Below, piece after piece: positions 4,227 through 55,704 of a stretch of DNA of 64,000 bases (positions are counted from its first letter, which is position 1; the number at the start of each line of letters is the position of its first letter). The stretch spans positions 930,001 through 994,000 of the forward strand of contig NC_089441.1 in the NCBI RefSeq assembly GCF_026210795.1, written 5' to 3'. Both the position numbers and the translations under genes were made by a program. Below the pieces are notes generated by a model. That model worked only from the letters and a program-made list of their open reading frames with translations, made no database searches and was not told where the DNA came from. Source of the DNA: Rhizophagus irregularis (Eukaryota; Glomeromycota; Glomeromycetes; Glomerales; Glomeraceae).

Positions 4227-7200
4227 ATGTCATTTCAAAATACATGCAAAAGATGCGGTGAAGAATATACAGATATATATAATAAATGGTGTAAACATTG
4301 TATAATAAATTATTTGAAAAATAATTTTATAAATTGGTCTAGTGAAAATGAAAAACTTGATAATTTTATTCAACAATTGCAATTAAATATTGATGATTCA
4401 TCTGATATAGTATTTGAATGGATACCATATAATCAATTTAATGATATTAAAGAAATAATTAAAAATGATCTTAATGTCATTTATTCAGCAATATGGAAAG
4501 ATGGTCCATTATATCATGATAAAAATAATGAATGTATTAGAAAACCAAATAAAAATATCGTTTTAAAAAGTTTATTTAATTTACAAATTCTTTCTACCGA
4601 ATTTCAAAATGAGGTACGAAAAATTTTTTATAAATTTAGTTCAAATTTCCTTGTTTAATATAATAATTTATTTACATTTTTTAATTTTTTTTTTTATATT
4701 TGTAGTTTAAAACATATTCAATAAATCCTTATAAGGAAAATGCTCTTTTAATATATGGAATCTCTCAACATCCTGATACGAAAGAGTATTTTATGGTTCT
4801 TCAGGATGATTATTGTAAAAGTTGTAATAATAAATATACAAGTGAGATATGGTGCTATCCATGTCAAATAAGCAAATTTAAGCAAAATTTTAATAATTGG
4901 ACTAGCGGAAATAAAAAAATTGATGATTTTATTCAAGGAATGCAATTAAGCATGAATAGTAGTATTGATATACCATTTGAATGGATACCTTATGATCAAT
5001 TTGATATTATAAAAGCAAGAGATAAAGATGATTCAGATGATTCTACTATAGTATATTCAGCAAAATGGAGGGATGGTCCATTACGTTATAATATTCATAA
5101 AATGGGATATATAAGAAATTCGAATCAAAAAGTTGATTTAAAATGTGTACATGATTCTCAAAGTATTATCGATGAATTCTTAAATGAGGTATGGATTTTT
5201 CTAAAAATTCAATTGTAATAATTGTAATATAATACTTATTATTTTATTCTTTATTATTAGGTCGCAACATATTCAACTGCATGGATAGTATCGCATCATA
5301 GTAGTAAAACTTCTAAAATATATGGAATATCCCAACATCCAAATACAAACGATTATATAATGGTTCTTCAAAGTAATTATTGCGAAAATTGTGATAAAAA
5401 TTACGTAAGTAATAATGTAATGAATAAATGGTGTAAACCATGTCAAATAAACCATTTGAAAAAAAATCTTGCGAGCTGGTTTAGTGGAAACGAAGAAATC
5501 GATGATTTCATTCAAGGAATGCAATTAAAAATTAATTATCGTAATAATGTAGTATTTGAATGGATACCATACACTCAATTTTATGATATTAAAAAAATAG
5601 TCATTAGTGATTCTATTACTATATATTCAGCAATATGGGAGGATGGTCCATTATGTTACGACGAATATGACGAGAAATTAACAAGAGAATCTAATACAAT
5701 GGTTACTTTGATATGCTTAAATAATTCAAACACTATTATTGATAAATTTTTAAAAGAGGTATGATAGCCTTTAATAAATTTGTTTTAAAATAATAATACT
5801 TTTTAGCGTATTTAATCTCTGTTTCTAATAGGTCGAAATACATTTAACAAGAACTCGTAATCACAATGATGACGACGATGATAAGTATGATGATAATGGT
5901 GATGTTAATGATGATGATGATGGTGTTGATGATGATGACGATAATAATACTAGTTTTCTTGAAATATATGGTATATCCCAAAATCTAGTCACAAAAGATT
6001 ATATCATGATTTTTCAAGATGGACATTGTAAGAAATGCGGAAAAGAATATACTGATATAAAAAGTAAATGGTGTAAACAGTGTCAAATAAATGATTTTAG
6101 AGAAAATTTTATAAATTGGACGAGTCATAATAAAGAAATTGATAAATTTATTCAAAAATTGCAACTAGATATTAAGAATTATAATGATAAGATATTTGAA
6201 TGGATACCATACAATCAATTTAAAAATATTCAAGAAATAAACAAAAGTAATTCTATTACAATATATAAAGCGATATGGAATGATGGTCCATTATATTATG
6301 ATGATGATGAAAAGAAATGGATGAGAAACTCTAATAATAATGTTGCTTTAAAATGTTTATCAAATTCACAAATCATTGTTGATGAATTTTTAAATGAGGT
6401 ACAAATTTCTAAGTTAATTTGAATTTTTTTTTTTTAAATAAATTATTAATATTTATTTTTTTTAAAAAATAGGTTAAAATGCATTTAGAAAATGATGACG
6501 ATGACGACAATATTAATTTCCTTGAAATTTATGGAATATCACGAGATCCAGCCACAAAAGATTATGTTATGATCCTTCAAGATGGATATTGTGAAAAATG
6601 TGGTGAACAATATACTGATAAATGGCTTGAGTGGTGTAAACCATGTCTAATAAATCATTTACAATCAAATTTTACAAACTGGACTAGTGGAAATAAAAGA
6701 GTCGATATTCTTATTCAAGAAATACAATTACAAGTTGATAAATGGTATGATATAATATTTGAATGGATACCATTTGATCAATTTAGTGATTTTAAAGAAG
6801 TAGGTAGAGGTGGTTTTTCTAAAGTATATTCAGCAATATGGAAGGATGGCCCATTAGATTATGATATTGATAAAAAGGAATGGAGGAGACAACCCAATAA
6901 AAAAGTTGCTTTAAAATGTTTATTCAATTCAGAAAATATTAGTGATGCATTTTTAAATGAGGTGAGATTTCTTTAAATATAATATATTTCTATTTATTAG
7001 ATTTACCCCTATTTATTAATAATATTTATCAATAGGTTAAGGCATATTCAAATACAATTACTGAAAAAATTCTTCAAATATATGGAATTTCTCAAAGTCC
7101 AAATACGAAAAATTATATTATAATTCTTCAATATGCAGAAAGTGGAGATTTTAATGATTGGATAGATAAAAATTATAAAAATTTTGATTGGAATAGTAGA

Positions 7201-44900: not shown

Positions 44901-45339
44901 GATAATTTCGATCAATGTTTGTCAAATGACTTGAAACTACACACGTATTTGAGTCATTTGTTATTTATTGCATATTACGCAAGATTGTAAAAAATTTTTT
45001 AAAAAATTGAAAAAATGATCAAAAGATTTTTTGATATGTTTTATTTTGAATTTCAAAAAATTACTTTACTCAATTCCTCCCATAGTTAAAAAAAAATTGC
45101 AGTTAAGCGCGATGTTTGATTTTCTGAAACGCTCAATTTAACATCTTTAGGATCACTATATTACCCATTCCATCCTTTTTACGACTGTCACAGGAATATA
45201 TTTTATTTTATTTTTTTTTTGTTCGTTTGGCATATAGGTTATTTTTAGTTTTAAATTATATCTAGAGTTTATTTTATTTATTGGAAAACGAAGGCTTAGA
45301 TAATGGGTGGCTAAGATAAATCGGAAGTGGCTTAACTGG
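44901..45339. other. Intergenic left flank of the retrotransposon
   Basis: AT-rich, no gene seen. It ends at the CTGG target-site duplication (45336-45339). Confidence 0.6.
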
Positions 45340-45972
45340 TGTAATGCCGTAGTATATCTAGTAAATTTATTAATTGTGAGGCGCAGTATTACATTTAGTC
45401 TTAGTGTATAAAATTTTAACTTATTTTTATTTTTATTTTAATTGGACCGAGAAGTCGTTAAACTAATAATCACATGGATTAAGGTAATTGGTCCGTGATG
45501 ACCTTAAACTATTAGTCACGAGATTTAAGGATAAATGAGGATCCGAAAGATACTAAATTGAATGAAATCAAGTGATCTGAGGTGTCAAGTGATTAATTTG
45601 TTGATCACTACGTTAATATTATAAATCATAATTCAGGAGTTCATGATGATCAAATGGATACAAAATTAAGATAATGGAAATACTTTAAAACAATGGAAAT
45701 ACTTTAATAATTTAAATCCATGAATCGAAATTATGAATTTAGTTACACAAAAACAAACATAAAAGGGCGTGAAGATCACCTTTTGGAAAGGACAGAGAGA
45801 GAGAGAGAGAGAGAGAGAGAAAATTGGACGAATTTTGTCATGAATTATTTATTTTAGTACTTAATGTTATTAAACCAAGCATATTATTGTATTTATTTAT
45901 ATTATTAATAAAGAGTCATTTTGTTAATACCTGAGGTGGCAAACATAATTCTCTATGGGCTCAGGTGTTACA
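45340..45972 (+). repeat. 5' LTR
   Basis: Begins TGTAATGCC and ends GGTGTTACA, with 5-base terminal inverted repeats TGTAA/TTACA. It contains a TATAAAA box at 45407-45413, a (GA)13 microsatellite at about 45793-45820 and an AATAAA polyadenylation-type signal at 45907-45912. By eye it is identical in length and sequence to the 3' LTR. Confidence 0.93.
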
Positions 45973-45974
45973 AG

Positions 45975-45992
45975 TGGTGCATGCTCCGAGAA
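45975..45992 (+). other. Primer-binding site for a tRNA-Gly-type primer
   Basis: TGGTGCATGCTCCGAGAA starts two bases after the LTR and is complementary to a tRNA ending CGGAGCATGC-A-CCA. Such a tRNA must begin GCATGCT, which is exactly the 5' end of the tRNA-Gly-like sequence at 54880 in the same element. The Gly identity comes from that D-arm (TTTAGTGGTATAATTC). Confidence 0.7.
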
Positions 45993-46104
45993 AGGAAAAG
46001 TGATCATCCTCACATGATCACTACAGGTTATAAGTACAGGATCTCTGAGAAAAGAAAATGATCACCCCCACGTGATCATTAGAAGTTACAAATAAAGGAT
46101 CGAC
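45988..46104 (+). repeat. Leader tandem repeat, two 58-59-bp units
   Basis: The two units start GAGAAAGG (45988) and GAGAAAAG (46047). Each contains a palindrome of the type TGATCA...TGATCA flanking CCTCACA or CCCCCACG. They lie immediately after the primer-binding site, where packaging or dimerisation signals commonly sit; that role is inference. Confidence 0.65.
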
Positions 46105-46544
46105 GAAGTTAAGGAATTATAAAATTAAAAGTTCTAAGTCTTGGTTAAAAAAGAATTTAAGGTGTATTAATGACAAATGTTAATAAAATAAAGTCAAATA
46201 TTTTAAAGGATACGTGAAAATAATGGTTACTAATGTAAAAGGTATTAATTTGGGTAAGTATGACCATAAATATATAAAGAGATAATGTTCAAAATTAAAT
46301 TTTTGATCTAACTTGACCACCGGCTGATAAGTCAATGAAAAATTATTATTATAATAATTTTCATACATATGAACCAAATATGTATGGTAGTAATTGATTA
46401 TCAAGGGAAATGCGAGGCTAATCAAGTTAGAAGGGGTTTTAATAGAATATTGTAAATAAGTTCCATGAATTAAGGATTAAAAAATAATTTTTATAAATAA
46501 TTGAGGTTAAGTTAAGGATAAAAAGTGTACCCAAAAGCCGACAC

Positions 46545-46713
46545 TATAAATACGATGGTGGGGTAATTCTGTGTGAACTCAATTGAGGTTTTCTGTGTGA
46601 TCAATTGAGAATAGTTCTGTGTGAGCTTTTTCTGTGTGAACTCAATTGAGGTATTCTGTGTGATCAATTGAGAATAGTTCTGTGTGAACTTTCAAAAACA
46701 ATTCTGTGTGAGG
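46545..46713 (+). promoter_or_regulatory. Internal TATA box and 63-bp repeats before gag
   Basis: TATAAATA at 46545-46552 is followed by two copies of a 63-bp unit starting at 46567 and 46630, plus a partial third. The decamer TTCTGTGTGA occurs about seven times, and AACTCAATTGAGG alternates with ATCAATTGAGAATAG. It lies 290-430 bp upstream of the gag start and may be an internal promoter or leader element. Confidence 0.45.
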
Positions 46714-47001
46714 GTACCCAAGAAAAATCATGATTAAAATTTTTTTTTTTTTTATTAAAAATAATATTTGCTGGACAAATATGAAAAAATTACAGGAAAG
46801 AGATAAATCAAATATGGAAACACATCCCAACCTTAGGTTGGAAAATTTTATGGAATATAAATTTATTTGTACAAACCTGTAAACTACCATACTCGGTAAT
46901 GAACAAATGAGGTAAAGGCAAGCCCAGTATAGGTCAAATAAAATATAAAAGAAGGATAAAAAGTAAAAGAACGTGAAAATTTTTAGAGAATTTTATTAAA
47001 A

Positions 47002-50000
47002 ATGGAATGGTACCATGTTTGGAACGCTGAATATATAAACCATAAACAAGAACATGACCTAGGAGTGATAGAACCAGAGGAATGTTTAGCATGTGAAATA
47101 TGTAACCCAATAGAAAGGGAAGTATCAGCAGCATTCAAGAAATTTTGGGATGCTTTATTTAAATTCGAGGATACAATACTAATGTACAATAATGTAACAC
47201 ATAAAGAATTATTGAATTTATTAAGTATGGACAATAGAGAAAGGGAGGATACAATACATAAAGGAAAATGTAGGAATATAGTAGATAGAATAATTGAATC
47301 AATAAGGTACAGACAACAACCAAAAATGAAAGAAAAAGGTTTAAGGATAATAATTGTAGTAATTGTAAGGGATTGTATTGAAGGAAATTTAGAAAATGAA
47401 GTATTTGACCGGTTAATTGGATGTCCAGAAATAATGGAACATGGATATATTTTGGAAGATTGGGATGTTGAAAACAGATTTCAAAAATTTTGGGAATGGT
47501 ACGGTTCAATATTAGAATTTGGGGTGGAAGTAATCCATGCGACACCAGAAATGATAGTAATATTCAGGAAATTATTATACATGGAAGAAACCATAACTGA
47601 AAATATAGGAAAAGTAATTGATTTAACGAATACAATTGTTTACAGAAACTCATTAGGAAAGGAAGAACCAAAACAACAAGAATGGGAAAGATTGATACAG
47701 AAAGTGTTACAAAGATTTATTGACACCAAACAATTTACAAGGGAACTTGAAGACCCAGAAAGTGATAGTCCTGAAAGTTATGAACTAGAGGACAGTGATG
47801 GTAGTATACATTATGAAGTAAAAATAGAGGATGATGTCGAATGGACAGTGGAATCATTAAAAAGAAAAATTGAAGAAATGGGTGGAAGGTTCACTGACAA
47901 GGATATACAAAGAATGTGGGACCTAAGGATAAGGATAGAATTGATATTAACAGAAGACTTTTTAGGTACATTTTTCGAATTAATGAGACTAAGTGATGAA
48001 AAATTAAAAGATGAAATAAATGAATGGTTAACAAAAGAAACATTAATATGTGGAAATTGTAGGAATAGAAAGTTACCTGATATGATAGCAGACATTGGAC
48101 AATGTAAAAATTGCGAACAAAAAGAATTATTAAAATTAAAGGATGACTTAGAAAAATTAGGATACGAATTAAATGTGTCAGAAATAGAGAGAATAAGAAA
48201 ATTCAGGATAAGCAATAGTATGATATTAACAACGGAATTTATGGAAAAATATTTCCAGGAAATGGGTACGAATGACAAAGAATTAAGGATAAAATTATAT
48301 GAATGGATAAATGAAAATACCACATTTTGTAATGAATGTGGAATAAGATGGATGAACAATAAATTTAACGAAGGAAAAACCAAGTGTAGGGATTGTGAGA
48401 ATGACGAAAATGAAATTGATATCAGGGTCAAAAGATTAAAACAAATATGTGATGATAATAAAATAGAAATAACTGATGGAGAGTTATTAAGGTTAATCAG
48501 TATGGGATATACTGATGGAGAAATATTGGATCAAGAATTTATTGAAATATTCCAAGGAAATAAAAATGAATTGGAGAAAAATTTAAGGCGGATATTAAAT
48601 AAATTTCTAAAACAGCAAGCTGGAATTGAGGATAGTGAAAGTAGTGGAAATGAATCTGATAATGAAAAATCGGATGGATTTGAAAAAGAATCAGATGGAT
48701 CTGGAAAAGATGGAGAAATTTTAAAACCAAATGAAAGTGATAACAATGAGAATTTTGAAGAACCCTATGAAGAAAACATTATAAATAGACCTGGTTTTGA
48801 CTCAAGTGAAAGTTCAGAATCAAATTCTGAGGATAAAAGTGAAATATCTGATTATAATATAGAAAATTTATTTGAAACACCTTTAACACCACCGATACCA
48901 CCAATCCCACCAATAGTACCAATAATTATGGGAGCAACAAGAGCTGAAGTAAGGGAAGATTTTAGAGCGGCTTTACTAGCAGCAACGGGACATGATATAG
49001 GAGGTAATTGGGCTGGATTAGTCGCAGCCAACCCATTAGCAAATGCAATTGAGGATGCAGGAAATGTAGCTGGAGGAATAATTAGTATGCCACAATTTTA
49101 TGGAAGGGAAGAAGAAGACATAAACGATTGGGTAAGACAATTTGAAACAGCATTTACTGCCATAGGAAAAACAGCAGGAGTAAATGGAGCTAGACAAGCA
49201 GCAATGGCAGCTACCTGTTTGAAAGGTGCAGCAGCACAATGGTATAATGAAAAGAAGGAAGCAAACAATGGTCATTTGGTAAATTGGCAAGATAACGATA
49301 ATGACAATGATTTAAAACATAGGATTAAACAAAGATTTACCAGAGAGGATGTTAGAAAAAGGAAAATGTTAGAATTAAGGAAAATAACACAAGGAGTAAA
49401 TGAAAATGTTGAGGCATATACGATAAGGTTTAGACAAATATTAAGGATAGCTACCAGAGGCCATGCATTAGATGATGAATTACAAGTGGATAATTATATC
49501 GAAGGATTAACACCAACATTGGGATATCAAGTCAGAAGACAAAACCCAGCAAATTTAAATGATGCGGTGAATACAGCAAGAAGAGAGGAGGAAGCTACTA
49601 ATGAATTAATAAGAAAGACACGTGGTATATCAGTTAGTACCCAAAGAAAAGGAATCGATATACAAGATGACAAGCCAAAGAATATATTTGAAAAACCATT
49701 GGAGAAAAATTATGAGGATGACCTTGCCGACATGTTTAAAAAATTAGAGGTAAAACTAGTAAATCAACTTGGAGGGCAAAAGAGACCACCAAACAATAAT
49801 AATAGACAAGGACCACCACCTCGAGCATGTTATAATTGTAAACAACCAGGACATTATGCAAATGAATGTAGGGTAAATAATGGTCAAAGAAACTATGGAA
49901 GACCGAATAATCAAAATTATAACAGAAGATCAAATAACTATAATGGAAGACCAAATAACTATAACAGACCACCAAACCACCAAAACAATAATCGAGGATT

Positions 50001-50586
50001 CAATGTAGTGGAATATGATAATTATAATGACCAATATGACCAATACGATTATGATAGTCAGGATTATCAGGATAATTATGATCAAGGATATAGTTATGAC
50101 GACCCGTATTATCAAGATAATGATGTAACATTTAATCATGTTGATCAGGATTTTTATATTGGTGAAAGACAAACAAGGAGTAATATAAAAAATAGGTCAA
50201 GTGATCGAGATATAGATATGGAAATTGATCGAGAACAAACACGCAGAAGAAATGATAAATATGCAAGCCAAGAGGAAAGGGCAGCAGCATTACCAAAAAG
50301 AGGATTCACTGATGAAAGTCTGAGGAAAGCACAAGAAGCAAGGAGAAATAATAATACATGTGGAAATTGTGGACAAAGAGGTCACTATGCAAAACAATGT
50401 AAAAATGAACGTGTTGAAGGTATTCATAGGACAAGCGCATTTCAAAGAAATATACCAAAATATAACGTATTAGAGGATATGAAAAGTACCAGAGCAAATG
50501 CAACTTTTTCACAAATTATAGATATGAGCCCAGAACAAAGAAAAATATATTATGAAGGAATGAGAAGGTATCCACAAACAGATTGA
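47002..50586 (+). CDS. Gag polyprotein with extra N-terminal cysteine modules
   Basis: A 1194-residue protein. Residues ~1-640 form an unusual extension: an early C--C pair (CLACEIC), then repeated modules of a helix (for example TDKDIQRMWDLRIRIELIL) followed by a Cys4 motif (CGNC...CKNC and CNEC...CRDC). A third helical copy lacks cysteines, and an acidic Ser/Glu stretch and a Pro-rich spacer follow. A capsid-like retrotransposon gag domain begins near Met 643 (QFYGREEEDINDWVRQFETA, KGAAAQWYNE, RFTREDVRKRKM, VEAYTIRFRQI). Two zinc knuckles (C-x2-C-x4-H-x4-C) lie at ~943 and ~1120. They are separated by a Tyr/Asn/Asp-rich, prion-like stretch. The role is virus-like particle assembly and RNA packaging. 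The stop is TGA followed by CTA. Confidence 0.9.
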   Translation: MEWYHVWNAEYINHKQEHDLGVIEPEECLACEICNPIEREVSAAFKKFWDALFKFEDTILMYNNVTHKELLNLLSMDNREREDTIHKGKCRNIVDRIIESIRYRQQPKMKEKGLRIIIVVIVRDCIEGNLENEVFDRLIGCPEIMEHGYILEDWDVENRFQKFWEWYGSILEFGVEVIHATPEMIVIFRKLLYMEETITENIGKVIDLTNTIVYRNSLGKEEPKQQEWERLIQKVLQRFIDTKQFTRELEDPESDSPESYELEDSDGSIHYEVKIEDDVEWTVESLKRKIEEMGGRFTDKDIQRMWDLRIRIELILTEDFLGTFFELMRLSDEKLKDEINEWLTKETLICGNCRNRKLPDMIADIGQCKNCEQKELLKLKDDLEKLGYELNVSEIERIRKFRISNSMILTTEFMEKYFQEMGTNDKELRIKLYEWINENTTFCNECGIRWMNNKFNEGKTKCRDCENDENEIDIRVKRLKQICDDNKIEITDGELLRLISMGYTDGEILDQEFIEIFQGNKNELEKNLRRILNKFLKQQAGIEDSESSGNESDNEKSDGFEKESDGSGKDGEILKPNESDNNENFEEPYEENIINRPGFDSSESSESNSEDKSEISDYNIENLFETPLTPPIPPIPPIVPIIMGATRAEVREDFRAALLAATGHDIGGNWAGLVAANPLANAIEDAGNVAGGIISMPQFYGREEEDINDWVRQFETAFTAIGKTAGVNGARQAAMAATCLKGAAAQWYNEKKEANNGHLVNWQDNDNDNDLKHRIKQRFTREDVRKRKMLELRKITQGVNENVEAYTIRFRQILRIATRGHALDDELQVDNYIEGLTPTLGYQVRRQNPANLNDAVNTARREEEATNELIRKTRGISVSTQRKGIDIQDDKPKNIFEKPLEKNYEDDLADMFKKLEVKLVNQLGGQKRPPNNNNRQGPPPRACYNCKQPGHYANECRVNNGQRNYGRPNNQNYNRRSNNYNGRPNNYNRPPNHQNNNRGFNVVEYDNYNDQYDQYDYDSQDYQDNYDQGYSYDDPYYQDNDVTFNHVDQDFYIGERQTRSNIKNRSSDRDIDMEIDREQTRRRNDKYASQEERAAALPKRGFTDESLRKAQEARRNNNTCGNCGQRGHYAKQCKNERVEGIHRTSAFQRNIPKYNVLEDMKSTRANATFSQIIDMSPEQRKIYYEGMRRYPQTD

Positions 50587-51125
50587 CTACAAGAATCAAT
50601 GAACAACATTGAAGCAGAACACTTAACTGCATTAAGGGGTAAATTAATAATAAACCAAGAATTAAAGGACGTAATGTTTGATACAGGAGCAGCAGTAAAT
50701 GTAATAACTAGTCAGATAATGGATGAAATGGACCTAAAATTGAGGAACCGAGTACAGTAAGATGTGTGATGATAAATGAGGATAAATTAGCATCTAGGGG
50801 TACCACGACAATATACATACAATTTGGGGATAAGGAAATACCCATTAAGGTTGAAGTAATTGATTCAGGAAAAAACGAAATTGTGTTAGGAAATGGAGTA
50901 TTAGATATGTTCAAAGCAAATATAGATTACACAGATAAAACAATAATAATTAGAATGAATGATGAAACTATGGATATACCAGTAAAATACACACAAAGGA
51001 CCATTAAAGGGTTTGAAGAAACATTTGATGAAGAGGAAATATTAGAAGAATTATACCAGGATGAATTGTATAACATATATGAAGATGACCATGAAGGTCA
51101 GGAAGATGAAAATTTTAAAGTATAA
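50587..51125 (+). pseudogene. Aspartic protease, split by a one-base shift
   Basis: It follows gag in the same frame after the TGA. This frame contains the catalytic motif DTGAAVNVI (about 50680-50706) and runs to a TAA at 50758-50760. The next segment (IEEPSTVRCVMINED then GTTTIYIQFGDKEIPIKV, VLGNGVLDMFKANIDY) continues in the -1 frame from ~50736 to 51125, so one A appears missing from the run CTAAAATTGAGG. The second half has the usual hydrophobic-Gly strand (EIVLGNGVLDMF) of retropepsins. An acidic C-terminal tail (EEEILEELYQDELYNIYEDD) follows. A mutation, an assembly indel in a homopolymer, or frameshifting could explain the break. Confidence 0.75.
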
Positions 51126-52600
51126 GTCTTGGTCAGAATGATACTGAAGAGACGATAAAGAAGCACAAAAGTGACCATGAAAAATTTACTGAAAAATTTA
51201 AAGTAGGGGACATAACCAATGAACAAAAAGGTAAATTAAAAGTATTAGTAGAAAAATATAAGGATATATTTGAGTACGATGGTGAAAAATATAATAGGAC
51301 AAACCTAGTAAAACATGAAATCAGATTAAAAGGGGGTACTGAACCAATAGCCCAAAAGAGGTACAAAGAAAATGATGAAAAAGGTAAATTCATCAGGAAA
51401 GAGGTTGACGAGATGTTAAAATTGGGAAAAATTAGAGAATCTAGAAGTCCATGGTCTTCACCAGTGACTTTAGCAGGGAAAAAGTCGGGAAATTATAGAT
51501 TTTGCATCGACTATAGAAAATTAAATAAAGTTACAATAACAGATGCATATCCATTACCGAGGATTGATGAACAATTAGAAAGGATAAGTTCAGGAAAATG
51601 GTTTACCAGTCTAGATTTAGCATCAGGGTTTAATCAGATAGAAATGGCTGAGGAAGATATTGAGAAAACAGCATTCATATGCTCAGCAGGATTATATGAA
51701 TATAATGTCATGCCATTTGGGTTAACAAATGCGCCTGCAAGTTTTCAAAGGTTAATGGATAAAGTATTAAAGGAGTACCTAAACGAATTTGTGATAGTAT
51801 ACATTGATGATATAATGATATATTCGGAAAATTTTGAAGACCACCTAAAACACATAAAGTTAGTGTTAGAAAAATTAAAGGAAGCCAGTTTAATACTAAA
51901 GTTAAAGAAATGTATATTTGGGAAAACAGAAATAGAATTTTTAGGACATGTAGTTGGTAAAAATGGATTAAAACCAAGTCCAGGAAAGGTTGAAAAGATA
52001 CAAAAATTAACAGCACCTATAAATATAAAAGGTGTAAGGTCAATATTAGGGTTATGTACGTATTATAGAAAATTTATTAAAGATTTTTCAAAAATAGTAA
52101 AACCAATAACATCTTTATTGAGAAAAGATGAAAAGTTTGAATGGGGCATCAAACAACATGAAGCATTAGAAACATTAAAAAGGAAATTAACCGAAGAACC
52201 GGTGTTAAGACAACCAGATTGGTTAAGGAAATTTATATTAATTACAGATGCTTCAGGAATAGGATTAGGGGCAGTGTTAGCTCAAAAAGATGATAAAGGT
52301 CAAGAATATGTAATAGAATATGCCAGTAAAAGTTTAAACAGGACAGAACAAAGATGGCCAATAACCGAACAAGAATGTTATGCAATTGTATGGGGAATAC
52401 AACATTTCCATAAATACTTGATCAATAGAAAATTTGAGGTAGTAACAGACCATGCAGCTTTGAAGGGATTAATGACTGCAAAAGTACCAAAAGGAAAGAG
52501 ATCAAGATGGGTCATGGAATTGGAACAGTATGATTTTGAAATAACCCATAGACCAGGAAAAGAAAATAAAAATGCAGATGCCTTATCAAGAATAATATAA
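51119..52600 (+). CDS. Reverse transcriptase-RNase H
   Basis: Open without its own start from 51119 to 52600 (~493 residues); the first Met at 51413 is inside the RT domain. The RT N-terminus reads KHEIRLKGGTEPIAQKRYKE. Then come YPLPRIDEQLE, FTSLDLASGFNQI, FGLTNAPASFQRLM and the catalytic YIDD (51800-51811), followed by FLGHVV and LGLCTYYRKFI. RNase H follows with DASGIGLGAVLAQ, EQECYAIVW, TDHAAL and HRPGKENKNADALSR. All catalytic acids are visible. It copies the element RNA into cDNA and degrades the RNA strand. It is out of frame with the protease and probably needs a correction, a shift or processing from a polyprotein. It ends with TAA, then another in-frame TAA twelve bases later. Confidence 0.92.
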   Translation, partial: SISLGQNDTEETIKKHKSDHEKFTEKFKVGDITNEQKGKLKVLVEKYKDIFEYDGEKYNRTNLVKHEIRLKGGTEPIAQKRYKENDEKGKFIRKEVDEMLKLGKIRESRSPWSSPVTLAGKKSGNYRFCIDYRKLNKVTITDAYPLPRIDEQLERISSGKWFTSLDLASGFNQIEMAEEDIEKTAFICSAGLYEYNVMPFGLTNAPASFQRLMDKVLKEYLNEFVIVYIDDIMIYSENFEDHLKHIKLVLEKLKEASLILKLKKCIFGKTEIEFLGHVVGKNGLKPSPGKVEKIQKLTAPINIKGVRSILGLCTYYRKFIKDFSKIVKPITSLLRKDEKFEWGIKQHEALETLKRKLTEEPVLRQPDWLRKFILITDASGIGLGAVLAQKDDKGQEYVIEYASKSLNRTEQRWPITEQECYAIVWGIQHFHKYLINRKFEVVTDHAALKGLMTAKVPKGKRSRWVMELEQYDFEITHRPGKENKNADALSRII

Positions 52601-52636
52601 ATAGATGGGTAAAAGAGTTACTTTTCAAAAATAAAA

Positions 52637-52876
52637 ATGGAACAAGTGGTAAGAAATACAAATCATAAAATAAAGGATATAATCGAAAATTTAGAAGGTA
52701 TAACAAAGGAATTAAACAGGATAAACTATAACTATAAATTCAAAGCCAAAAATTTTGAAGATAGTGAAGAAAGACCATTAATATTGGAAACTCAAGAGGA
52801 AATATTACAAATAGAGGTGATATTAAGTAAAGTAAACAAGCTAAAATTATCAGAATTATGTAAAAATGGGACCTAA
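52637..52876 (+). CDS. Small helical ORF between RNase H and kinase-integrase
   Basis: 79 residues in the same frame as RT-RNase H but separated from it by two stops. It is mostly charged and predicted helical (NHKIKDIIENLEGITKELNR, ETQEEILQIEVILSKVNKLK), perhaps a coiled coil. No family was recognised. Its stop overlaps the start of the next ORF as ATGGGACCTAA, a layout compatible with termination-reinitiation. It might instead be a degraded connector of the pol polyprotein. Confidence 0.5.
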   Translation: MEQVVRNTNHKIKDIIENLEGITKELNRINYNYKFKAKNFEDSEERPLILETQEEILQIEVILSKVNKLKLSELCKNGT

Positions 52877-54647
52877 AATAATAATCATATGTGGAGTTGA
52901 TGGTACTGGAAAAACATTCATTGTAAATAAACTTATAAAAGAATTTGAAAAAGTAGGACAAAGTGTGAGGTTTAACACCTTTAAAAGGAGAAGAGAGGAC
53001 AATGATAAGTATAAAATACCAAAGAAAGGTATAGAATGGGAATTCAGGAAGGAAGTTGTTGAACAAATCAACAGGAGAATGGAAGAACATGATAATGAGG
53101 ATTGGTTAATATTAGATAAAAGTCCCTATAGCGAGTACTTTTATCAACAAACACCATCATTCGACAGAGGATACATAACAAGATATGAGAACCACCTATT
53201 AGAAAAGGAAGTATTTAGGAACAAAAGGATAATTGATGAATCAATAGTGATATTTTTAGAAAATGAAAAATGTTGGGAAAATTACAAAGGTAGAGAATAT
53301 TCGAAAAAGGATCAAGGACATAAAACATCATACCCATTATTAGATGAAGAAAGATATATGGAGATGGTGAAATCATTTAAAGAATGTCAAGATATTTACG
53401 AAGGAGAAAAATATGCTAATATTAAAATATCAAATAATGACACAGATTGGGAAAGAGTATATAATAAAATAATAGAATTAGATGGAGATAAACCACCAAT
53501 AGAGGTTAAAAATGTTGAGATTAAGGATAACATCAGAGTAACTGATGGTAAAAAGCATATTGAGAAAAATGGTAAAAACATCAGAATAATAGAAGACTTT
53601 GAAAAGATGGGAGCACTATATTTAGCTCACAGTCATGAATTATCGGCACATATGGGAATCAAAAGTACTTATAATAATTTAAAAGATAAATATTATTGGG
53701 AAAATATGCTGGATGATGTCGAAAGATATGTAAGGACATGTGATGAATGTCAAAGAAGAGGAAAACCACAAGGGAAAAATGAATTACACCCAATTAAAGT
53801 AGTAGAACCATGGTATCAAATCGGGATCGACTTTGTTGGACCATTGAACACAACAACAAATGGTAATAAATACATCATAGTAGCAATGGATTATTTTACA
53901 AAATGGCCAGAAGCCAAAGCAGTAAAAGAAGCAACTGCCAAAGAAGTATCAAAATTTATTTATGAAGACATCATTTGTAGACATGGATGTCCAATGAAAA
54001 TATTGAGTGATAGAGGAAGTCATTTCAATAATGAAATGATTAAGGAATTAATGGAAAAATTCAAAATTAAATGGAATTTTTCTACAAGTTATCATCCAGA
54101 GACAAACGGACTTGTTGAAAGATTCAACCGAACATTAGGTCAAGCATTAGCAAAATTATCAACCAAAGATGATTGGGATCAAAGGATAGCACCCATATTA
54201 TTTGCTTACCGAAATAAAAAGCATAGTTCAACAAGAATTCGACCATTTTATTTAACATACGGAAGAAATGTACGGACAATAATGGATGAAAATATCAAAG
54301 AAATTAACCTAAGTGATAGAATAGTTGGATTATTAGAAGAACTACCAAAAATCCGACATGAAGCCAAAGAACAAATACTGAAATCTCAAACAAAACAAAA
54401 AGAGTATCATGACAGAAAAATAACCAAAGAACACACCTTTGGAATTGGAGATAAAATACTACTCTATGATAAAGCCAAAGCACAACAACTATCAGGAAAA
54501 TTAGAATCAAAATGGTTGGGACCATTTTACATTCATGAAATACTACCGAATGGAGCTTATAGAATTAAAAATATTAAAGGTGTCATCAAGAAGATACCTG
54601 TAAATGGAGAATTATTAAAGACTTACCATACACCGATGAGTAAATGA
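52866..54647 (+). CDS. P-loop nucleotide kinase-integrase fusion
   Basis: 593 residues. Residues ~1-205 are a P-loop kinase of the thymidylate/deoxynucleoside kinase type: beta strand plus Walker A IIIICGVDGTGKT (P-loop 10-17), WLILDKSPYSEYFYQ (~80-94, the DR-x-x-S-x-x-Y-Q-like motif), and SIVIFLENEKCWENYKGRE (~126-143, like the beta strand plus LID arginine region). A linker leads to the integrase: zinc-binding AHSHELSAH...TCDEC (H255/H257, H262, C292, C295), then the catalytic triad D322 (GIDFVGP), D382 (SDRG), E418 (NGLVERF), an exact D,D-35-E spacing. The C-terminal part has WLGPFYIHEILPNGAYRI. No chromodomain was seen. All key residues of both enzymes are present, so the fusion looks active. 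The kinase may raise dNMP or dTMP phosphorylation in the particle, as dUTPase does for some retroviruses (inference). Confidence 0.9.
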   Translation: MGPKIIIICGVDGTGKTFIVNKLIKEFEKVGQSVRFNTFKRRREDNDKYKIPKKGIEWEFRKEVVEQINRRMEEHDNEDWLILDKSPYSEYFYQQTPSFDRGYITRYENHLLEKEVFRNKRIIDESIVIFLENEKCWENYKGREYSKKDQGHKTSYPLLDEERYMEMVKSFKECQDIYEGEKYANIKISNNDTDWERVYNKIIELDGDKPPIEVKNVEIKDNIRVTDGKKHIEKNGKNIRIIEDFEKMGALYLAHSHELSAHMGIKSTYNNLKDKYYWENMLDDVERYVRTCDECQRRGKPQGKNELHPIKVVEPWYQIGIDFVGPLNTTTNGNKYIIVAMDYFTKWPEAKAVKEATAKEVSKFIYEDIICRHGCPMKILSDRGSHFNNEMIKELMEKFKIKWNFSTSYHPETNGLVERFNRTLGQALAKLSTKDDWDQRIAPILFAYRNKKHSSTRIRPFYLTYGRNVRTIMDENIKEINLSDRIVGLLEELPKIRHEAKEQILKSQTKQKEYHDRKITKEHTFGIGDKILLYDKAKAQQLSGKLESKWLGPFYIHEILPNGAYRIKNIKGVIKKIPVNGELLKTYHTPMSK

Positions 54648-54879
54648 TAACTATCATCAATGGACTTAGAAAAATAAAGATAATTTATAATCATGTGAAA
54701 TAAAATCACATGACATAAAAATAATTTTCGAAAATAGGAAAAACTAATGAAAATTTCCTAAGAAAGACCGAAGTGAAATCCGGTACAGGAAAACCGTAGA
54801 CTTAACAAACACATGATAAACCGCAGATGTAGACGCAGCAAAAAGGAATATTTAAAACACAGCTGAGTCAAGTGACAAT

Positions 54880-54950
54880 GCATGCTTGATTTAGTGGTAT
54901 AATTCGCACCTACCACTTCGAGACACGAGTTCGATTCTTAGAATAAATTT
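54880..54950 (+). tRNA. Degenerate tRNA-Gly-like sequence
   Basis: It reads GCATGCTTGATTTAGTGGTA, then TAATTCGCACCTACCAC, then CACGAGTTCGATTC. A-box (TTTAGTGGTA) and B-box (AGTTCGATTC) elements of a tRNA-Gly gene are recognisable, and an ACC anticodon can be proposed. The anticodon and T stems pair poorly and the 3' acceptor strand is missing, so it is a tRNA-derived pseudogene rather than a working gene. It lies inside the retrotransposon, ~35 bp before the 3' LTR. Its 5' acceptor strand GCATGCT is what the primer tRNA must have. Confidence 0.6.
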
Positions 54951-54974
54951 AATGTGGGCATTAAATTTTTATGC

Positions 54975-54980
54975 GGGGGA
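54975..54980 (+). other. Short polypurine tract before the 3' LTR
   Basis: GGGGGA lies four bases upstream of the 3' LTR, where the plus-strand primer is expected. It is shorter than most polypurine tracts, so the call is tentative. Confidence 0.4.
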
Positions 54981-54984
54981 TAGT

Positions 54985-55617
54985 TGTAATGCCGTAGTAT
55001 ATCTAGTAAATTTATTAATTGTGAGGCGCAGTATTACATTTAGTCTTAGTGTATAAAATTTTAACTTATTTTTATTTTTATTTTAATTGGACCGAGAAGT
55101 CGTTAAACTAATAATCACATGGATTAAGGTAATTGGTCCGTGATGACCTTAAACTATTAGTCACGAGATTTAAGGATAAATGAGGATCCGAAAGATACTA
55201 AATTGAATGAAATCAAGTGATCTGAGGTGTCAAGTGATTAATTTGTTGATCACTACGTTAATATTATAAATCATAATTCAGGAGTTCATGATGATCAAAT
55301 GGATACAAAATTAAGATAATGGAAATACTTTAAAACAATGGAAATACTTTAATAATTTAAATCCATGAATCGAAATTATGAATTTAGTTACACAAAAACA
55401 AACATAAAAGGGCGTGAAGATCACCTTTTGGAAAGGACAGAGAGAGAGAGAGAGAGAGAGAGAGAAAATTGGACGAATTTTGTCATGAATTATTTATTTT
55501 AGTACTTAATGTTATTAAACCAAGCATATTATTGTATTTATTTATATTATTAATAAAGAGTCATTTTGTTAATACCTGAGGTGGCAAACATAATTCTCTA
55601 TGGGCTCAGGTGTTACA
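54985..55617 (+). repeat. 3' LTR
   Basis: 633 bp, TGTAATGCC...GGTGTTACA. It matches the 5' LTR in every row compared, including the (GA)13 run. It is followed by the CTGG target-site duplication. Confidence 0.93.
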
Positions 55618-55620
55618 CTG

Positions 55621-55704
55621 GGCAAAATTGTCCGATCGGCAAATTTGGCCAGAAGGCAAAATTGGCTGGATGGCAAAATTGTTCGACGGGCGAATTCGTA
55701 CCGG
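55621..55704. repeat. Five 17-bp tandem units at the insertion site
   Basis: GGCAAAATTGTCCGATC, GGCAAATTTGGCCAGAA, GGCAAAATTGGCTGGAT, GGCAAAATTGTTCGACG, then a partial GGCGAATTCG unit: the period is exactly 17. The core GGCAAAATTG is kept while the last seven bases vary. The retrotransposon inserted at its left border. Confidence 0.85.

Follow-up and report, generated by a model that had tools for sequence, protein, structure and literature searches.

A predicted nucleotide kinase of the thymidylate kinase superfamily in the pol region of Ty3/gypsy-type retrotransposons from Rhizophagus and Glomus

The window analysed here is a stretch of 64,000 nucleotides from the genome of Rhizophagus irregularis (NC_089441.1, positions 930,001 to 994,000; G000:C13:930001-994000 in the genome searched, which comprises 146.7 Mb in 32 contigs). 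It holds a long terminal repeat (LTR) retrotransposon in which a single open reading frame (ORF) joins a predicted nucleotide kinase to the integrase (IN). The reading that we favor, and regard as fairly probable, is that a Ty3/gypsy-type lineage of Rhizophagus and Glomus captured an enzyme of the thymidylate kinase (TMK) superfamily and kept it in pol, raising the supply of deoxynucleoside triphosphates (dNTPs). An extra enzyme is held by selection over several families of this lineage; its action on the nucleotide pool we infer. We see an even chance for the fuller claim that this is, within the reach of our searches, the first retrotransposon lineage to encode its own deoxynucleotide kinase, that the enzyme accompanies RT and IN and supplies dNTP precursors at the site of reverse transcription, and that the cassette has been traded between families by recombination.

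The ORF and its parts are as follows.

52866..54647, + strand: kinase-integrase ORF, 593 amino acids, without internal stop
52866..53483, + strand: kinase domain, ORF residues 1-206
52893..52916, + strand: P-loop GVDGTGKT, ORF residues 10-17
53115..53147, + strand: DKSPYSEYFYQ motif, ORF residues 84-94, corresponding to the thymidylate kinase DRY motif
53262..53309, + strand: lid-like region with R143, E144 and K147, of presumed role
53616..54644, + strand: integrase, with an H2C2 zinc domain (residues 251-299), a D,D-35-E core and a GPF/Y-like C-terminus

An initial annotation of this DNA, made from the letters alone, had described an uninterrupted ORF with kinase motifs (GVDGTGKT from residue 10, DKSPY from residue 84) ahead of a complete D,D-35-E integrase with its zinc site. 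Each of these elements is present. The catalytic D382 and E418 are separated by exactly 35 intervening residues, the CDEC zinc pair lies at residue 292, and Pfam matches the ORF to Integrase_H2C2 (1.6e-17) and rve (6.8e-11). The observation of a kinase-integrase ORF in an LTR element is thus confirmed.

The predicted structure of the kinase domain is confident (pLDDT 90.2) and matches thymidylate and deoxynucleoside kinases across the whole domain, bearing out the nucleotide kinase fold that the annotation had proposed; a model of the full 593-residue fusion, built from 7 sequences, reaches a pLDDT of 43.9, too low to inform on how kinase and integrase are placed relative to each other. Judged by the model of the kinase alone, the window domain belongs to the thymidylate kinase superfamily, with the fold common to TMK and deoxynucleoside kinases (dNK). 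Sequence profiles agree, with a match to phrog_761 over residues 3-198 (E 9.7e-13) and, in Pfam, 24 of 28 matching Thymidylate_kin at E <= 0.1, none of the 25 families listed being a dNK family. Precomputed PF02223 labels are attached to some relatives, and a stretch beside decayed element-kinase matches (C6:4454486) scores 27.7 bits, above the PF02223 cut-off.

Thymidylate kinases are marked by a P-loop with an acidic residue, a DR-type motif and a tyrosine that excludes ribose. The element kinase has all three, in the form of D12, D84 with K85 (a conservative change of R to K) and Y93, aligned to the thymidylate kinase of the host; hhalign places DKSPYSEYFYQ opposite DRYAYSGVSYS of that enzyme. 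These positions are nearly invariant in the aligned rows, from which 55 of 137 matching proteins were left out as too short: K16 in 83/86 and D12 in 80/84 for the P-loop, D84 and K85 in 85/86 each and Y93 in 86/86 for the second motif, R143 and E144 in 87/88 each and K147 in 86/88 for the lid-like region. R61, close to F60 and V64, is conserved in 87/88. The P-loop consensus among relatives is (D/E/C)GVDGxGK(T/S), which we take to be of the thymidylate kinase kind. Two other similarities were set aside. The main sequence matches in the PDB are FtsY-type P-loops (TMK appears there only from E 0.06 up), which we read as a P-loop likeness due to chance and give less weight than the fold; a weak PADLOC match to mad8 (4.8e-7) we likewise read as general P-loop similarity.

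The arrangement recurs throughout the genome. The kinase domain is matched at E <= 0.001 in at least 151 places, 150 of them listed, a few rows being two pieces of one copy; besides the window, 149 listed matches carry all or part of its coding sequence. No stop interrupts the matched stretch in 136 of the 150 (counted by eye), and among them, likewise by eye, 35 long matches are 90-100% identical to the window domain, 34 of these without a stop, plus one short match. The window reverse transcriptase (RT) has 105 scored matches and the integrase 116. A kinase match follows on the same strand 0.3-3 kb downstream of 102 of the 105 RT matches (the other three at 5-16 kb) and lies just upstream of 96 of the 116 IN matches. 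Scored RT and IN matches stand on both sides of 74 listed kinase matches, and neither is found at 23. With 149 other listed matches and a kinase after 102 of 105 RT matches, the arrangement is not due to chance. The 20 IN matches without a kinase include 13 with the 407-408-residue IN frame of family D, described below, and 3 with a 470-residue frame.

Database proteins extend the range to R. clarus, R. diaphanus, Glomus cerebriforme and metagenomes, in addition to R. irregularis itself, where P0032 and P0033, named Rhizophagus irregularis DAOM 197198, are 99-100% identical to the kinase part of the window. Among 138 such proteins, a near full-length kinase and an RT share one chain in 15, and kinase and IN matches occur together in 10. 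Some metagenome members carry the automatic database name 'thymidylate kinase'. Several database kinases (P0007, P0010, P0014, P0016 and others) have an extension of about 50 residues ahead of the P-loop (e.g. ...EAxLLNL...LLKxxxRKxxP...) that is absent from family A.

Family A, to which the window element belongs, encodes RT and RNase H (RH) in a separate 493-residue frame in 30 of 34 RT rows, with the kinase at the start of the integrase ORF. As the initial annotation requires, other copies of the family keep the kinase, which lies within 3 kb of the RT in 32 of the 34 rows and 5 and 16 kb away in the other two. Elsewhere the kinase sits at the other side of the same junction. In family B (L032) it forms the C-terminus of a 706-residue RT-RH-kinase frame, and it likewise closes frames of 777 (L030, C777), 779 (L031, C779) and 674 residues (L029, E). 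In L029, L030, L031 and L032 the integrase is a separate frame, split in two in L029 and L032. The kinase-integrase fusion is thus found only in family A among the families read; the invariant feature is the location of the kinase, after RNase H and before integrase. The initial annotation had seen selection in the survival of the fusion, and this part is not supported, since in related families the same kinase is retained as a fusion to RT-RH.

Pairwise codon-model estimates of selection were obtained with our own GY94 script (L032 IN left out as broken, L029 IN partial). Because dS is saturated in most between-family pairs, the analysis is confined to the two pairs whose kinase dS is under 1. 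The window kinase against L035 gives omega 0.168 at dS 0.35, with a likelihood ratio of 31.8 against omega = 1; L032 against L031 gives 0.085 at dS 0.66, with a ratio of 59.5. For the window and L035, omega is 0.027 in RT and 0.046 in IN. Within family A, 20 fetched copies were compared with the window (L022 without gag, protease (PR) and RT in the fetched stretch, IN partial in two), yielding pN/pS of 0.24 for the kinase (18 to 16), 0.05 for RT, 0.10 for IN, 0.13 for PR and 0.30 for gag. The synonymous excess in the kinase is significant (binomial p = 7e-5). On the pN/pS within family A and the codon-model omegas, purifying selection acts on the element kinase, though less tightly than on RT and IN, in line with the selection that the annotation had supposed. 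As a separate observation, 4 of the 20 family-A copies carry CGA-to-TGA stops in IN (codon 253 in L012, L018 and L021, codon 178 in L011), a pattern that fits CpG deamination; the kinase remains open in all four.

Several results weigh against a thymidylate kinase working for its element. The Thymidylate_kin family named by the initial annotation does match, but below the cut-off of 27 bits (18.3 for the whole ORF, 21.4 for the domain alone), and NCBIfam DTMP_kinase (TIGR00041) gives the window domain 21.5 bits against a cut-off of 83.25; we therefore place the domain in the superfamily and not in the TMK family. In structure comparison by VIA Z, TMK (16.6) and dCK (16.4) are tied. Thymidylate kinases bind thymine through a Phe and an Arg. 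The Phe is kept (F60), and the position of the Arg is aligned with V64 in a single hhalign alignment of modest probability (75%), so that dTMP is not established as the substrate. The likeness to thymidylate kinases (phrog_761, PF02223; S. aureus 4dwj, M. tuberculosis 4unr) covers the whole-domain fold, the P-loop and a D-K/R motif followed by Tyr, whereas identity in structural alignments is only about 12-19%, the base-binding Arg is apparently not retained and the element kinase sits in a retroelement pol. The looser constraint on the kinase (pN/pS 0.24) than on RT or IN in family A points the same way. Finally, at the one locus read of the related family D (L033), the RNase H coding stretch runs to 4843, the IN frame begins at 5042 and a kinase is absent. 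The one locus read with the 470-residue IN frame (L034, of a more distant group) also has no kinase at E <= 1e-3. Both lie outside family A, so that the retention seen there is untouched.

The alternative that best survives, although an unlikely one, is that the domain is a deoxynucleoside kinase, salvaging dA, dC, dG or dT to the monophosphate with the same kind of benefit. The near-equal Z of dCK structures would fit it, as would the dNK-annotated pithovirus models that have the top TM-score (0.71) among the 50 BFVD matches listed; DKSPYSEYFYQ, which reads DKS, also presumably resembles the ERS motif region of dNKs. The P-loop with its conserved D12 and the sequence profiles speak for the thymidylate kinase side instead. 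Rather less likely still is a P-loop NTPase in another role, such as nucleic-acid end phosphorylation, particle assembly, nuclear entry or a host-defence decoy. Weak matches to many P-loop families and the apparent lack of the canonical base-binding Arg would be explained by it, but the TMK/dNK fold spans the whole domain, and the second motif and lid are conserved along with the P-loop.

That the kinase is a functionless passenger, host sequence caught by chance, we consider very improbable. Transduction of host sequence is known in plants, as an excerpt of PMC7264820 describes, but the element kinase is under purifying selection, with dN/dS well below 1 in the two unsaturated comparisons as strong evidence, occurs in several families and species, and is mostly free of stops in its genomic matches. 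An origin of kinase and integrase from different loci through faulty assembly or annotation is hardly credible, as nothing was found for it and the same order recurs in many independent copies and records, both at the RT matches and in the single chains counted above.

Under the reading that we favor, the captured kinase would hold its place in pol, following RNase H and preceding integrase. It forms either the N-terminal part of the integrase ORF (A) or the C-terminal part of the RT-RH ORF (B, C, E), and the element protease may subsequently release it. Made along with pol, it would enter the particle, by analogy with dUTPase. There it would use ATP to phosphorylate deoxynucleoside monophosphates (dNMPs), either dTMP or another, turning them toward dNTPs and raising the local supply for reverse transcription, perhaps, as we assume, at fungal stages when DNA replication is low. 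By sequence and model, the kinase is part of pol and has a nucleotide kinase fold with conserved ATP-site residues; activity, substrate, presence in the particle and benefit to reverse transcription are proposed by analogy. The initial interpretation of a nucleotide kinase carried by an LTR retrotransposon is accordingly supported, dNTP delivery in the particle would be a further step, and the substrate may be dTMP, a different dNMP or a deoxynucleoside.

LTR elements are already known to capture enzymes; the capture of a nucleotide kinase is new as far as we have searched. Excerpts of the literature describe dUTPase in fungal Ty3/gypsy elements such as PosPlaTy3 of Postia placenta (PMC2864245) and in rotifer LTR elements (PMC5408684), placed at several points of pol, which in retroviruses include the interval from RT to IN (PMC2864245, PMC5408684). 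These elements resemble ours in holding a captured nucleotide-pool enzyme in pol, at a position that differs by family, but the window lineage has a TMK-superfamily phosphotransferase and not a dUTP pyrophosphatase, with another fold and another reaction. Orchid Gypsy elements have an ORF for an AlkB RNA demethylase with activity demonstrated in vitro, according to an excerpt of PMC9289625. Here too a Gypsy lineage captured and retained an enzyme; AlkB, however, is a separate ORF and an RNA demethylase without a tie to dNTP supply. In excerpts of two R. irregularis transposon papers (PMC8647823, PMC11075540) no element-encoded nucleotide kinase appears and 'kinase' refers to host protein kinases. 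Open-access PMC returned no paper joining Rhizophagus irregularis, retrotransposon and thymidylate kinase, and none joining retrotransposon, thymidylate kinase, integrase and LTR; to judge from excerpts, none of its papers on retrotransposons and thymidylate kinase appears to concern an element-encoded kinase. Capture of dUTPase points to management of dNTP pool quality by some retroelements; a kinase would point to management of its quantity as well. If so, local nucleotide supply would be a selected trait of some LTR elements, and it becomes testable whether dNTP supply limits retrotransposition outside S phase, with natural RT-kinase and kinase-integrase arrangements available for study in arbuscular mycorrhizal fungi with transposable-element-rich genomes.

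Kinase and RT trees disagree in a way that suggests transfer of the kinase from one family to another. Both trees used 15 of the 138 database proteins (P0056, P0057, P0059, P0060 and further rows with an incomplete kinase or RT were excluded). The C779 rows (L031, P0044, P0051) group with E and C777 in the RT tree and fall inside B, on a starred branch, in the kinase tree. The RT data reject C779+B (p-AU 2.8e-84) and the kinase data reject C779+E (6.3e-5) and C779+E+C777 (0.0063), values that are optimistic because the groups were chosen once the trees and the L031/L032 comparison had been seen. In that comparison identity is 89% in the kinase and 68% in RT. The simplest account would be recombination, perhaps during reverse transcription, that placed a kinase of B type in an element of C type. 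A useful gene would be expected to look like this cassette, exchanged between families and at the same time retained. A second exchange is possible for P0053 and P0041, whose RTs are sisters (100/99), yet whose kinases lie inside (P0053) and outside (P0041) the B clade.

In the RT tree rooted on L034, family D falls outside the kinase-bearing families (86/95, branch not starred), which suggests a single kinase capture after D branched off; the RT data do not reject D+A (p-AU 0.12) and the IN tree does not resolve the place of D. The host thymidylate kinase (L037, G000:C13:3242213-3242981), with coding pieces in different frames as with introns, belongs to the same superfamily and its motifs can be aligned with those of the element kinase, but identity is 24-25% (hhalign) and its P-loop reads GCDKAGKS. 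It is missing from the 150 listed genome matches, so that the element kinase did not arise recently by copying of the host gene. A tblastn search of 50,697 phage records returned no convincing donor (6 records, best E 0.2), and pattern scans of viral contigs and of bacterial and archaeal genomes, which reach motif-keeping relatives only, each gave 19 pattern matches and 0 relatives. All organism-named rows among the best 120 of 399 proteins in a profile search (E <= 10) are Rhizophagus or Glomus. Thus no close donor was found in these scans or among the 120; a distant one may be among the remaining 279 matches, and the 120 give no basis to rule out Gigaspora, Diversispora or other fungi.

The remaining features of the window element are listed below.

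45340-55617, + strand: LTR element, with identical LTRs at both ends
45340..45972, + strand: 5' LTR, 633 bp, target duplication CTGG directly 5' at 45336-45339
45975..45990, + strand: presumed primer-binding site TGGTGCATGCTCCGAG, starting 2 nt past the 5' LTR, assigned by position only
47002..50586, + strand: gag ORF, 1194 amino acids, its C-terminal half holding the capsid and CCHC knuckles, with a TGA stop followed by CTA
50587..51125, + strand: protease region (DTGAAV), with a frame shift inside the region in the window copy
51413..52600, + strand: reverse transcriptase-RNase H (RVT_1 7.2e-42, RT_RNaseH 2.2e-36)
54974..54983, + strand: presumed polypurine tract CGGGGGATAG, 1 nt ahead of the 3' LTR, assigned by position only
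54985..55617, + strand: 3' LTR, 633 bp, CTGG directly 3' at 55618-55621

The LTRs, the domain order gag-PR-RT-RH-IN with IN last, and the D,D-35-E and H2C2 integrase identify the element, on sequence criteria, as of Ty3/gypsy (Metaviridae) type, with the kinase slotted between RH and IN. No chromodomain was among the 24 families in the Pfam scan of the ORF, which has a GPF/Y-like end only, and we do not assign the element to the chromovirus clade. The LTRs begin TGTAAT and end GTTACA (TG...CA type), are flanked by the 4-bp duplication CTGG and, as the initial annotation had stated, are identical (633/633 bp), so that the insertion is young by LTR identity. The annotation had deduced a recently active copy. 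The protease region, a single 179-residue frame in L009, is shifted in the window copy, which is therefore not intact in all genes. The reverse complement of the presumed primer-binding site terminates in GCATGCACCA.

UGA-CUA is a stop-readthrough context. At the gag/protease boundary (50584-50589) the window copy has a single in-frame TGA followed by CTA, as do 18 of the 20 family-A copies fetched (a scan for the motif gave no match in the remaining two) and L030, L031, L032 and L033; it looks like a conserved readthrough signal. The stop codon between RT-RNase H and the kinase ORF is retained across family A. In this family (gap 52600-52866) and in L029-L033, the integrase or kinase-integrase has its own ORF apart from RT-RH.

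The first part of gag (47002-49000) encodes an unusual N-terminal extension of about 700 residues with paired CxxC motifs, and similar extensions occur in L032 and L033. Just 5' of the polypurine tract, 54880-54941 resembles tRNA-Gly by eye, with parts that we take to be A-box-like and B-box-like; ARAGORN called no tRNA anywhere in the window. This stretch begins with GCATGC, a hexamer shared with the presumed primer-binding site (45975-45990). The interval from the 5' LTR to gag holds short direct repeats at 46558-46707, in 63-nt units with TTCTGTGTGA.
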